Below are positions 2,099 through 14,123 of a DNA stretch of 33,555 nucleotides, one piece after another. Each line of letters starts with the position of its first letter. Position 1 is the first letter of the stretch. A program made the translations under genes and the position numbers. Source of the stretch: a virus; IMG/VR virus record IMGVR_UViG_3300036770_003822, positions 1 to 33,555 of that record. The stretch is one strand, 5' to 3'. A model generated the notes under the pieces. The model had not been told where the DNA came from and did not search any database. It saw nothing but the letters and a program-made list of their open reading frames with translations.

Positions 2099-2432
2099 CT
2101 GTTGCTACAATCTTAAATTCAAATGGCTTTGAATCATCTTGCTTGTGTTCTATTTTATCTACCCAGCCACAAAGATTTTTCAGAGCGAAAATCATCATGG
2201 CAGTGTTCCCCTTATCGGCCATCTCTAATGCCTTACGAACTAACTTTAATCTAGTGTGAACCATATTTTGTTGCCGAGCGTCCGCAAAATCAATGTAGCC
2301 AAATTCTTTGCAACGTCTTTCGATTGTGTCTTCAGAGCATTTAAAAAAAGATGCAGTGTCCTTTAGTGTGGGGTTCATTCTGCATAAAGCCTCAAGTTGT
2401 TCTTGATCTATTTCTAATTTAGGTCTAGCCAT
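2067..2432 (-). CDS. terS: Terminase small subunit
   Basis: This 121-residue protein recognises phage DNA for packaging and feeds it to the large subunit. Residues 10-45 predict a helix-turn-helix (L-x-A-L-C-R-M-N-P-T-L-K-D-T-A followed by the recognition helix C-S-E-D-T-I-E-R-R-C). A helical oligomerisation region follows at about 55-95 and ends in N-L-C-G-W, then a short flexible tail. It sits immediately upstream of terL and overlaps it. Its start overlaps the end of the methyltransferase gene by 8 nt, so it is part of the same message. Confidence 0.85.
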   Translation of the reverse strand: MARPKLEIDQEQLEALCRMNPTLKDTASFFKCSEDTIERRCKEFGYIDFADARQQNMVHTRLKLVRKALEMADKGNTAMMIFALKNLCGWVDKIEHKQDDSKPFEFKIVATDANSSSTTPT

Positions 2433-3474
2433 TTTTATTTTCCTTAAACCATTGTAAATAAACTTGGTTCGCTACACCATAAGTCATTAATGGTGGAACT
2501 GACATTCCTATCATGTATAAAGCAAGGTTTGTTTTTTGAAATTTATAATCAAGCGGGTAGCTACCTAATACACATGCTTCTTGCTTTGAGAGTTTTCTCG
2601 GGCTTTCATAATGCCAAAGCGGAGCTCCTGCTGTGATTGTAAAACACGGACCATCTCTCTGAATTTTTTTTTGTGTAAAAAGTGATTGAGTCGGGTGATA
2701 TTTAGAAAAAGCCTCTCCAGGTTTGCATTTATGCCAATACCTAGTCATTGATGATAATGTTAAATCTTTACCTTTTTCGTTTATGTCTTTAATCGATTCA
2801 AAGGCCTCTTTAACCGAAATTGCTTTATTACGAAATCCAAGTTTCAATTCAGGCAACAAAATATCCTTTCTTCTGCATATAAAAAACACCCTCTCTCTCA
2901 TCTGTGGCACACCCATTGAGGCACTATTCAAAAGGAATAATTGAACATCATAACCCATTGTGTTAAACAATCCGATTATTTGTTTGACGTAACCTTTTGC
3001 ATTGCCTTGCAACATTCCTTTTACATTTTCAGCAATAACAACTTTAGGCTGTAATTTTCTTGCAAGTTCAATGAAATCAAAAAATAAATCATCAAGAACC
3101 TGCTCAGCTTGCCCCTCTCTAAATTGTTTCTTCTTTCCCCAGCCTTTTTCTCTTGCTCCTGCCATTGAAAAACTGGAGCATGGCGGTGATCCGTCAAGAA
3201 TATCCAAATTATAAAGTTCTTCAGGTAAATCTGTTCGTTGTCTGAACTTTCTAATATCCTCAAGAAAGTAATATTTTGGGCTGTGGTTTTCTTTATAATG
3301 CCAAGCCATTTCTGGATCAATGTCGTTAGCACCTATTACATCGAAACCTGCTAGTTTATAACCCATTGTTGAACCGCCACCGCAAGCAAAACATGAAAAA
3401 ACTTTTAACCTGTTCTTCTTAACCTTTTCAAGATCAGAAAGATACCATTTATAATTGGGCTTATAATCACTCAT
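2425..3474 (-). CDS. DNA (cytosine-5) methyltransferase
   Basis: The enzyme transfers a methyl group from S-adenosylmethionine to C5 of cytosine in DNA. Using the ATG at 3474 (349 residues), motif I FACGGGSTMG is at 29-38, the catalytic P-C of motif IV (GSPPCSS) puts Cys at 99, motif VI ENV at 149-151, motif VIII QMRER at 191-195, an RKLSKQEA motif IX-like segment near 293, and motif X GMSVPP near 323-328. The region between motifs VIII and IX, which would recognise the target, is short. An in-frame start at 3522 adds 16 residues, but the one at 3474 overlaps the upstream stop by only 8 nt and is preferred. No restriction partner is visible, so it looks like a solitary phage methylase for protecting DNA or marking packaging substrates. 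Confidence 0.95.
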   Translation of the reverse strand: MSDYKPNYKWYLSDLEKVKKNRLKVFSCFACGGGSTMGYKLAGFDVIGANDIDPEMAWHYKENHSPKYYFLEDIRKFRQRTDLPEELYNLDILDGSPPCSSFSMAGAREKGWGKKKQFREGQAEQVLDDLFFDFIELARKLQPKVVIAENVKGMLQGNAKGYVKQIIGLFNTMGYDVQLFLLNSASMGVPQMRERVFFICRRKDILLPELKLGFRNKAISVKEAFESIKDINEKGKDLTLSSMTRYWHKCKPGEAFSKYHPTQSLFTQKKIQRDGPCFTITAGAPLWHYESPRKLSKQEACVLGSYPLDYKFQKTNLALYMIGMSVPPLMTYGVANQVYLQWFKENKNG

Positions 3475-3973
3475 TGAATTCAAACCCACATTTTGGGCAT
3501 TGATGTTGTAAATCATTACCAAAATTTTCAGTGTCTATTTCTTGGTTTTTATCTGAAAAATCAAACTTTTCTATCGGTTCAATAACAAAATCTTTTAAAC
3601 CTAACAGGTCAACATCAAAATCAGGCCCTAAGTCTAACATCTCAGTATTAATTTCGCTTAGGTCTAATTCGGCCCACTCAGCAATAGCATTATCAGAAAC
3701 AACAAATGAATATTCTTGTGCTTCATTTTCAAAATCTTGATAATCAACTGCACATTTTTCCCAACCTAATTTTTTAATTGCTTCCAATCTGCCATGCCCA
3801 ACCACAACAAAGCCTGATCTTTTAGAAATGATTACAGGGTGTCTTTGACCCTGATAGTCAATAATTTTTGACAATCTTTCAATTTGTTTTTCGCTGTGCT
3901 TGTTTGGATTTTTTGGATTTGGAATTATTTTGTGAACTTCCAATAGCTCATTATAAGAACAATTTATTTGCAT
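3467..3973 (-). CDS. ParB/sulfiredoxin-fold N-terminal domain protein
   Basis: This is a 168-residue protein. Residues 8-80 match the ParB-N (ParB/Srx) fold: N-P-N-K-H-S-E-K-Q-I near 22-31, a Q-R-H-P-V-I strand near 43-48 and the core V-V-G-H-G-R-L-E-A at 57-65. In ParB this fold binds CTP; in phages such domains often occur in small proteins next to DNA methylases, some annotated as nucleases. The C-terminus is acidic and ends in a C-P-K-C-G knuckle, only half a zinc site. The start has a strong ribosome site (AAGGAG) 8 nt upstream that is part of a hairpin (see 3983-4008). Whether it binds CTP or cuts DNA is unknown. Confidence 0.82.
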   Translation of the reverse strand: MQINCSYNELLEVHKIIPNPKNPNKHSEKQIERLSKIIDYQGQRHPVIISKRSGFVVVGHGRLEAIKKLGWEKCAVDYQDFENEAQEYSFVVSDNAIAEWAELDLSEINTEMLDLGPDFDVDLLGLKDFVIEPIEKFDFSDKNQEIDTENFGNDLQHQCPKCGFEFNE

Positions 3974-8701: not shown

Positions 8702-9434
8702 AAGGGTTCACCATTTTCAAAATATTTTCTTGCCTGATTTGCGCAAATGTTTTTGGATTTTCTTTTTGCTGACTTGACCTTGACAGCCAGTTAGTTAAAA
8801 ACAATCCAACATTTTTTTTCTTCGCAGGATTTGCCATTAGCCAAGTTTCAGCTTTTTCAAATTCCTTAAAAATGTGATCCAATGCATAAAGGCTTAACCA
8901 TTTGCGTTGTAGTTTTTCTGACACGCCGTTTAGTAAATCAGTAAATTTTTCAAGTTCAAAAATAATTTCAGTTTTTTCTTTTTCTTTTTCCTTATCTTTT
9001 TCCTTATCCTTATCCTTTTCTTTTTCCTTATCTTTATCCTTAGCTCTATCCAAGGGGCTATCTAGCCCCTCGCTAGCCCCTACACTAAAATCACTCAAGT
9101 TATTCAAATCAATGGAAAGTCTAGTAAGTTTATTTATAATACTTAGATGCACCTTGTTATTTTCCCTTAAAGTGCCATATTGAAAATCTATAAACGCTTT
9201 TATTAGAAATTTATCACCATCAACCAACGTCAATTTGTTGCCAAAATTTTTCCTTATTTCCTCAAGCGTTATTTTTTCACCAATATTAAAACTCATCGCA
9301 TCAAAGTCGATATTGTAAATTCCTGCATGATCGCATTTGTCTAAAAGATAGAACCAAACGCATTTTAATTTAGGTGATAATTTTCTGAACCAAGCGCGAT
9401 CCCATTTGTCAGTATCAGTAAATCTTTTGCTCAC
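8694..9434 (-). CDS. Phage replisome organizer / replication initiator
   Basis: The 246-residue protein has a winged-helix-type N-terminus (residues 4-105) with the order seen in phage replisome organizers: W-D-R-A-W-F-R-K-L-S-P, L-K-C-V-W-F-Y-L-L-D-K-C, H-A-G-I-Y-N-I-D. A Lys/Asp/Glu linker of alternating K-D-K-E-K units follows (132-154), then a helical C-terminal domain (about 158-230) with W-L-S-L-Y and F-L-T-N-W-L-S-R, which would contact the helicase loader. The start is GTG at 9434, decided by GGAGGG 5 nt upstream. The linker DNA may itself be the origin (see 8973-9081). Confidence 0.75.
   Translation of the reverse strand: MSKRFTDTDKWDRAWFRKLSPKLKCVWFYLLDKCDHAGIYNIDFDAMSFNIGEKITLEEIRKNFGNKLTLVDGDKFLIKAFIDFQYGTLRENNKVHLSIINKLTRLSIDLNNLSDFSVGASEGLDSPLDRAKDKDKEKEKDKDKEKDKEKEKEKTEIIFELEKFTDLLNGVSEKLQRKWLSLYALDHIFKEFEKAETWLMANPAKKKNVGLFLTNWLSRSSQQKENPKTFAQIRQENILKMVNPYE
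8973..9081 (-). other. Candidate replication origin inside the initiator gene
   Basis: About 70 bp of nearly pure purine on the coding strand (8973-9041) adjoins a GC-rich dyad AGGGGCTA / TAGCCCCT (9053-9060, 9063-9070) and a further direct copy of CTAGCCCCT (9062-9070 and 9073-9081). In lambda, the origin lies within the O initiator gene and combines repeats with an AT-rich, strand-asymmetric tract; this resembles that plan. The assignment is inferred. Confidence 0.4.
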
Positions 9435-9448
9435 AAAAACCCTCCAAT

Positions 9449-9540
9449 AAAAAACCGCCAGTCAGCATTTGAATTGCGAAGTCAAGGTTGCCGACTGACG
9501 GCGGACGTGCTAAAAATGAAATGAATGTAGACTTCGCACC
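9449..9540 (-). ncRNA. Structured 5' leader with interleaved stems and terminator-like end
   Basis: The leftward transcript should start about 9537-9540 and run into its own stem arm. RNA order is arm A (9530-9538), arm B (9495-9504), A' (9475-9483), B' (9455-9465) and six U (9449-9454). A pairs with A' over 9 perfect bp (TGCGAAGTC/GACTTCGCA). B pairs with B' over 10 bp with one bulged A. B-B' plus U6 is an intrinsic-terminator shape directly before the ribosome site. A-A' and B-B' interleave, so they form either an H-type pseudoknot or competing structures. It could be an attenuator, antiterminator or short regulatory RNA. Confidence 0.6.
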
Positions 9541-9543
9541 ATT

Positions 9544-9572
9544 CTTATATCCCAACTAAAACAGATTGTAAA
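9544..9572 (-). promoter_or_regulatory. Leftward early promoter
   Basis: On the minus strand -35 TTTACA (9567-9572, 5/6) and -10 TATAAG (9544-9549, 5/6) are separated by exactly 17 nt. The -35 box lies inside the operator repeat at 9563-9575, so a repressor bound there would block it. It is the best sigma70-type promoter found in the window. Confidence 0.7.
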
Positions 9573-9598
9573 TTGAAAAATCAATAGATTGTAAATCT
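9563..9598. promoter_or_regulatory. Tandem operator sites (AGATTGTAAAT repeats)
   Basis: The 11-bp sequence AGATTGTAAAT occurs at 9563-9573 and 9586-9596, with start points 23 bp apart. The second copy extends to a perfect dyad AGATT-GTA-AATCT (9586-9598). Two sites about two helical turns apart, one over a -35 box in a divergent control region, fit binding of a dimeric repressor such as the XRE protein at 5387-5665. Confidence 0.6.
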
Positions 9599-9645
9599 TG
9601 CAAAATGGCATAACTTATTGAATTAATAGGCAAAGTTAAATATTT

Positions 9646-9676
9646 TTTACACTTGTGTTACATTTCGTGCTACAAT
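9646..9676 (+). promoter_or_regulatory. Rightward early promoter with dyad
   Basis: A -10 TACAAT (9671-9676, 5/6) is preceded by TTTACA (9646-9651, spacing 19) or TTACAC (9647-9652, spacing 18). A small dyad ACAC-TT-GTGT (9649-9658) covers the -35. Transcription would start near 9683 and give a 33-nt leader before the first rightward ATG. Spacing is slightly long, so activation may be needed. Confidence 0.55.
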
Positions 9677-9715
9677 GATTTTATTAGAAAAATAAAATTA
9701 ACTAAGGGGGTAATT

Positions 9716-9877
9716 ATGAGTGAATCAAAAAAGGAATTTGAGAAATTAAAAAATTTAGAAAATGTTTTTATCCAGCTAATTGATAACGATGGCAACCATA
9801 CAAAATGTATGAAAATAGATGAGGAGTCAATTCAGGAATTAATAGTATTTTTAGAGCAATATTTTAAAGGGGAATAA
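9716..9877 (+). CDS. Hypothetical protein (53 aa), first rightward gene
   Basis: This is a small acidic/basic helical protein. The ATG at 9716 has a strong AAGGGGG site, so the longer frame beginning at 9653 (over the promoter) is rejected. The sequence has L-E-N-V-F-I-Q-L-I-D-N-D-G-N-H-T near residues 15-30 and a leucine-rich C-terminal helix. As the first gene after the divergent control region it could be regulatory, but no DNA-binding motif is clear. Confidence 0.66.
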   Translation: MSESKKEFEKLKNLENVFIQLIDNDGNHTKCMKIDEESIQELIVFLEQYFKGE

Positions 9878-14066: not shown

Positions 14067-14091
14067 AAAACCACACCGACGAGCAGTGTGG
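14065..14091 (-). terminator. Leftward intrinsic terminator between convergent units
   Basis: On the minus strand the hairpin CCACAC-(9 nt)-GTGTGG (14071-14076, 14086-14091) is followed by six T (14065-14070). It ends the lysis-gene transcript before it runs antisense into the exonuclease gene. Read rightward, the same hairpin is followed only by a distant TTTT, so rightward termination would be weak. Confidence 0.85.
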
Positions 14092-14123
14092 CTTGGAGGG
14101 TTTTCAAAACGGAAAGATCGTCC

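Follow-up and report, generated by a model that had tools for sequence, protein, structure and literature searches.

The leftward gene unit of the window, by which we mean the whole 33,555 nt stretch of viral DNA analysed here, is preceded by a short region whose transcript would carry four pairing arms in the order A-B-A'-B' followed by a run of six U. What kind of leader RNA is this, and what might it do for the operon behind it? The minus strand from 9544 to 9449 reads GAAUGGUGCGAAGUCUACAUUCAUUUCAUUUUUAGCACGUCCGCCGUCAGUCGGCAACCUUGACUUCGCAAUUCAAAUGCUGACUGGCGGUUUUUU, and all four arms of the structured leader that the original prediction had placed at the head of this operon were present (Table 1). 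The A-A' helix comprised nine perfect base pairs as claimed, whereas B-B', described as 10 bp with one bulge, proved to have a better register of 14 contiguous bp including G-U pairs (9502-9489 with 9467-9454). Because A' lies in the apical loop of B-B' and A lies outside B, the two helices share no base and are compatible as a pseudoknot; this bore out one of the two arrangements originally offered and contradicted the other, in which the stems would compete for common bases. Within the apical loop, A' sits on a small UUGA/UCAA hairpin. In the MFE fold A can lie in the loop of a 5' hairpin (P1), and its counterpart in related leaders is likewise the loop of a 5' hairpin. The second stem also agreed with the original description of a terminator-like element before the first gene: a GC-rich stem stands directly before U6, so that B-B' with its U-tract is best read as the anatomy of an intrinsic (Rho-independent) terminator, termination itself being a prediction.

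Table 1. Features of the leader and its surroundings in the window
Feature	Sequence	Position	Strand	Detail or basis
Putative leftward promoter	TTTACA-17-TATAAG	9544-9572	-	Putative, read from sequence
P1, 5' hairpin, 5 bp	GAAUG[GUGCGAAGUCUA]CAUUC	9523-9544	-	MFE fold of 9545-9435
A = L1, kissing partner 1	UGCGAAGUC (also written TGCGAAGTC)	9538-9530	-	Exact reverse complement of A'
AU-rich linker, 20 nt		9503-9522	-	
B, 5' arm of terminator stem P2	GCCGUCAGUCGGCA	9489-9502	-	
A' = L2, kissing partner 2	GACUUCGCA (also written GACTTCGCA)	9483-9475	-	In P2 apical loop
B', 3' arm of terminator stem P2	UGCUGACUGGCGGU	9454-9467	-	14 contiguous bp with 5' arm
U-tract	UUUUUU	9449-9454	-	Sequence
Shine-Dalgarno	GGAGGG	9440-9445	-	5 nt upstream of start codon
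First gene of leftward unit, DnaD-like helicase-loader/replication protein, 246 aa		8694-9434	-	GTG start; PHROG 1701, E 9e-5

Operationally, we speak of a kissing-loop leader if its 5' loop and the apical loop of its terminator are reverse complements over at least 6 nt; the pairing in the window spans 9 nt, and this pair of 9-mers had no further exact copies within the window. The region 9543-9449 displayed an MFE z-score of -4.1 relative to shuffles. None of 3000 dinucleotide shuffles of the 206 nt leader reached a kiss of at least 9 nt with a comparable stem, and a single one reached at least 8 nt, with a weaker stem.

The intergenic region that holds the leader is divergent, and no leftward gene lies upstream. 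The leftward promoter proposed for it is plausible but weak: a scan of 9430-9720, which used the sigma-70 consensus only, returned no promoter-like site on either strand, neither for the leader nor for an opposite-strand antisense RNA, and missed the proposed promoter because its -10 box lacks the last T. A start near 9537, if this promoter is used, would remove the 5' arm of P1 yet keep A. An exact 11 bp direct repeat, AGATTGTAAAT, occurs at 9563-9573 and 9586-9596 on the plus strand, 23 bp apart and with no third exact copy in the window. It overlaps and adjoins the upstream side of the putative promoter, and is a possible operator. The match of the first gene product to the DnaD-like helicase loaders of PHROG 1701 is weak, and relatives of the protein were found in viral contigs. 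This protein and nearly all of its relatives carry a long K/D/E repeat linker (KDKDKEKEKDKDKEK...) between their N- and C-terminal parts. It is possible that the leader gates most of the phage genes in the window.

Relatives of the first gene were taken from IMG/VR viral contigs and GTDB genomes. The window's own lineage was represented only by an identical phage (L001), and covariation was thus seen for the architecture in relatives outside that lineage. The upstream regions of these relatives could not be aligned with the window, yet many kept the same plan. P1, which presents loop L1, is separated by a 12-20 nt linker from a terminator hairpin (P2), and the apical loop of the latter, L2, reads as the reverse complement of L1; a U-tract comes next, and the start codon follows at a distance of 9-26 nt. 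Several leaders had two loops of exactly 7 nt that were complementary throughout. Examples of the paired hairpins include AGGU[GUCGGAU]ACCU with ACCA[AUCCGAC]UGGU (L131) and GAUGG[GGUGAAGA]CCAUC with CUUCACC (L011), whilst further loop pairs were AUGCGAC/GUCGCAU (L107), AACGAGG/CCUCGUU (L005) and ACGUAGA/UCUACGU (L018). Leaders of Bacteroidota type displayed a TATnTTTG-like promoter immediately 5' of P1, and P1 would therefore be the 5' end of their mRNA. The design is not confined to phages with such promoters, since a 10 nt kissing match (UCUGGACGGA) was present in a Thiothrix MAG contig (L134; NZ_JAQTLS010000024.1) binned as a gammaproteobacterial genome. Gammaproteobacterial genomes searched with the Thiothrix Rep yielded, besides the query itself, C-terminal-domain relatives only, and a scan of the Rep region of Pan5, a named phage with a Rep relative, found no such leader. 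The leader headed the operon even where HNH or GIY-YIG-like genes had been inserted first with Rep after them, and the downstream genes spanned unrelated replication families (DnaD-like, DUF1376/primosomal and Lin1244-type replication initiation). Whole records contained one leader per genome, apart from low-scoring chance hits; a single complementary partner was present in the window and in each of six related records, and no second copy of either loop hairpin was found above chance elsewhere in seven records.

Statistical support for the loop-loop pairing came from 21 distinct Rep-gene leaders, which were picked by the presence of a terminator stem no more than 45 nt from the start codon and thus blind to pairing. 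A simple MFE-based detection of terminators had overlooked most leaders and was replaced. Terminator anatomy, stem plus U-tract, was present in all 21, and loop complementarity of at least 6 nt in 19. When the terminator interior was compared with the upstream 70 nt, the longest complementary stretch averaged 7.38 nt within a locus and 5.27 nt between loci, and the own-locus sum was reached by none of 20,000 permutations. Scanning whole loci on both strands (1.77 Mb over both) gave 57 hits compared to 14.75 in locally shuffled sequence; at scores of at least 50, approximately that of the window element, there were 21 hits compared to 0.75.

Alignment of two leader families provided a further line of evidence. 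In family G1, represented by 11 distinct rows, the kissing helix was 100 % paired and five of its seven pairs had changed on both sides; when the partner was slid by 1-3 columns, no more than 45 % of the whole structure remained paired. In family G2 the helix was 93 % paired and displayed two-sided changes at four of seven pairs; P1 counts for G2 are underestimates, as the MAFFT alignment misplaces part of P1. Since the search pattern itself contributes to the invariance of the G1 linker, we did not count that invariance as evidence. Covariation in related phages was a refutation test that the original prediction had itself named, and the compensatory changes in G1 and G2 were clear. Across these leaders, comparison shows an L1-L2 pair that is kept by compensatory change and coexists with the predicted P1 and P2. 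Geometry permits this: by a simple estimate of 2.8 angstrom per pair, stacked P1-kiss-P2 rods measure 67-87 angstrom, and the linkers can span 78-126. The linker was long enough for the stacked rod in 15 of 16 leaders, indicating that the kiss can form in cis alongside a closed terminator.

Several known RNAs share parts of this design. In the ColE1 (RNAI/RNAII) and R1 (CopA/CopT) systems, fully complementary 7 nt hairpin loops set replication control and incompatibility groups; these are sense/antisense pairs from opposite strands with complementarity extending into the stems, whereas here a single sense RNA carries both loops, whose stems lack complementarity to each other. The c4 antisense RNA of phages P1 and P7 (Rfam RF01695) likewise involves a phage leader with short complementary segments in the same transcript, although its gene context differs from that of the leaders described here. 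For the Staphylococcus plasmid pT181, the rep leader is switched to termination when an antisense RNA kisses its 5' hairpin (PMC4878617). That attenuator and our leaders both place a 5' hairpin and, behind it, an intrinsic terminator ahead of a replication-initiator gene; in pT181, and as predicted here, the 5' hairpin does the sensing, the pairing of kissing hairpins decides and loop sequence sets specificity (PMC4878617). However, pT181 needs a separate antisense RNA that is complementary throughout, whereas here the terminator of the same transcript carries the complementary loop and complementarity ends exactly at the loop edges; moreover, the base of the pT181 5' hairpin contains an antiterminator segment, which pairs with and so captures the 5' arm of the terminator (PMC4878617). 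No such arm was seen here: on inspection of the window, G1 and G2, no stretch of P1 complemented the P2 5' arm, and MFE folds kept P1 and P2 separate. In the seqA-seqC immunity of satellite phage P4, transcription of the phage's replication genes is described as ending prematurely in the lysogen through the action of its own leader RNA (CI RNA; PMC4825925). The two cases have in common a phage leader RNA, replication genes, premature termination (predicted here) and short RNA-RNA pairing. However, CI RNA is a short stable RNA that arises by processing of the leader and has two targets, seqA and seqC (PMC4825925), compared to one partner here. Furthermore, the pairing described here involves the apical loop of a predicted intrinsic terminator, and most carriers, unlike P4, lack lysogeny genes. 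By this comparison the pT181-type attenuator and P4 CI RNA are functional analogues, each with a defining feature that our leaders do not share (the antiterminator arm and the two target copies, respectively).

Searches for a known class returned little. No Rfam 15 family, riboswitches, c4 and leaders included, matched at gathering score in the window or 12 related loci; a permissive Rfam search of three leaders gave only matches far below cut-off, and no account of a leader of this kind came up in the literature. The metabolite-sensing switch suggested by the original prediction thus found no Rfam match; nor were there conserved aptamer-like residues, and the paired loops were the least conserved part. 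An HDV-like ribozyme, which the A-B-A'-B' order resembles in its P1-P2-P1'-P2' arrangement, was dropped on account of the long P1-P2 linker, the terminator tail and the lack of a conserved core, and a type III toxin-antitoxin RNA was dropped for want of repeats and a toxin gene. A blastn match of the G1 terminator to Aggregatibacter phage Aaphi23 was judged to be chance, as it involved the terminator only and lay at a structural gene in a different context. The leader looks like an RNA-based replication control that has not been described before in the literature searched and is absent from Rfam.

Three simpler accounts of the element may be weighed against these data. The original prediction named the HK022 put sites as an analogue; putL and putR, each of approximately 70 nt, are made up of two adjacent stem-loops of conserved sequence, which bind RNA polymerase and let it pass distant terminators (PMC9378689). 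A leader RNA that similarly folds on the polymerase so that later terminators in the operon are ignored would fit the presence of two hairpins of similar size at the very start of an early phage transcript, within some 75-100 nt. However, the put element itself has neither a terminator nor loop-loop pairing (PMC9378689), whereas the second hairpin here is a terminator with its U-tract directly before the first gene in all leaders. The hairpins are also 12-20 nt apart, and the lineages share no sequence, the conserved trait being a loop pairing that is not described for put in PMC9378689; we therefore regard a put-like antiterminator as improbable. Slightly less credit still is due to an element acting as DNA, for instance an origin or protein-binding palindromes before the replication gene, with RNA folding irrelevant. 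Inverted repeats form in DNA too, and the element is always found beside replication-initiator operons, but G-U pairs are common in P1 and P2 of both G1 and G2, the U-tract always follows the second stem on the coding strand, and position is fixed relative to start codon and promoter. That we are dealing with the plain intrinsic terminator of an upstream transcript, and that A matches A' by accident, is scarcely credible. A chance 9 bp match is always possible in a single window, but the shuffles of the window leader and the cross-lineage covariation contradict it; the divergent setting, which leaves no leftward gene for such a terminator to serve, also counts against it.

The loops themselves were hypervariable. 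A scan with the G1 linker pattern detected more than 120 viral contigs, and 97 G1 leaders were parsed. L2 was the exact reverse complement of L1 in 95 of these (7 nt loops), and there were only six loop versions, recurring in many backgrounds. The two others (L295 and L371) displayed one mismatch each, with L1 from one known version and L2 from another one base apart; they look like intermediates between known versions, or assembly chimeras. Phages whose coding regions were less than 2 % apart differed pairwise at 17 % of L1 and L2 sites compared to 2 % of fourfold-degenerate sites, such that loops change approximately eight times faster than fourfold sites among close relatives, the pairs of phages not being independent. 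For example, L128 and L132 share 98.2 % identity across the 500 nt upstream of the leader and 98.6 % across the 900 nt downstream of it, yet carry GUACGAA/UUCGUAC and CUGCGAA/UUCGCAG, respectively. Loops likewise differed in eight of 14 G2 pairs at 95-98 % downstream identity, and clusters of near-identical phages repeatedly contained several loop versions. In L337 and L345, which are 82 % identical upstream and 98.6 % downstream, the leader lies at a recombination junction between modules, and some loop switching may result from recombination at the leader. We read the diversity as a whole as diversifying selection on a specificity tag. Mirror-image versions were also observed: L107 and L076 carry AUGCGAC as L1 and GUCGCAU as L2, whilst L173 and L157 carry the reverse arrangement, and the 5' loops of the two groups are therefore complementary to each other.

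On the basis of these sequence comparisons, we consider it probable that the element is a kissing-loop transcription attenuator of the replication operon, and that its loop pair serves as a diversifying tag of specificity, which other copies of the RNA probably read. The mRNA would start with P1, or with a short arm presenting L1, and approximately 20 nt on would come the P2 terminator with L2; the U-tract would follow, and within approximately 20 nt the replication initiator or helicase loader would begin with its start codon. P1 would already be folded when L2 emerges, so that the kiss could precede closure of the lower terminator stem. Part of the transcripts would end at the U-tract, releasing a leader RNA of approximately 90 nt, and L1-L2 pairing would set how often this happens; both termination of RNA polymerase at the leader and the effect of the kiss upon it are predicted. 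Leader RNAs from resident genomes would then pair with the loops of same-type leaders still being transcribed, taking the place of the cis partner and promoting termination, as we propose by analogy with pT181. We infer that the loops act in trans because the pair diversifies far faster than its surroundings yet stays self-complementary. The outcome would be a copy-number-like feedback on replication that gauges active genomes of the same loop type and is blind to other loop pairs. The least certain step is direction, with the cis kiss giving read-through and the trans kiss a stop; the sign could be reversed.

A purely cis attenuator or insulator would explain much of the same evidence. Here pairing would shape the terminator, affecting timing or the early level of replication protein, with no role in trans, and loop diversity would reflect recombination and the neutral drift of a helix that is free to covary. 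Complementarity that stops at the loops is what a structural kiss would look like, unlike an antisense duplex; the linkers allow pairing in cis; each genome has a single leader, no trans partner was found, and most carriers do not look temperate. Set against this are the rate of loop change relative to fourfold sites, although each step needs a double change, and the recurrence of the same small set of six versions across many backgrounds, and we consider cis action by itself the less likely account. Beyond the attenuator with trans-read loops, we entertain only tentatively a broader idea of phage RNA self-recognition, in which the leader is both regulator and target and loop types are compatibility types, the same type throttling replication whilst others escape. 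Such a system would have arisen or spread across Bacteroidota-type phages and phages of proteobacterial hosts before unrelated initiators.

Phage regulatory RNAs would gain a new class in a structured RNA that heads the replication operons of many phages, has no Rfam entry and carries loops that are hypervariable but remain strictly self-complementary. If the loops are read in trans, it would represent plasmid-like incompatibility for phages mostly devoid of lysogeny genes, explain competition between near-identical phages, and offer natural sets of apparently orthogonal RNA attenuators. A tyrosine integrase was present in one of 23 carrier records and an above-threshold CI-type HTH in one of 23, both in the record of L018, and a serine recombinase in none of 22, counts that are to be read with the possible incompleteness of carrier records in mind; no integrase was found in the window. 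As most carriers lack an integrase, CI-like HTH and serine recombinase, classical prophage immunity is not an obvious use.

Elsewhere in the window, a strong intrinsic-terminator-like hairpin with an 11 bp stem was observed between the convergent rightward and leftward units (14068-14094, minus strand). A gene encoding a protein with a ParB-like N-terminal domain (PHROG 620/498; 3467-3973, minus strand) precedes and overlaps that of an apparent cytosine-C5 DNA methyltransferase (2425-3522, minus strand), identified by reading its translation, and this gene pair adjoins the terminase genes.
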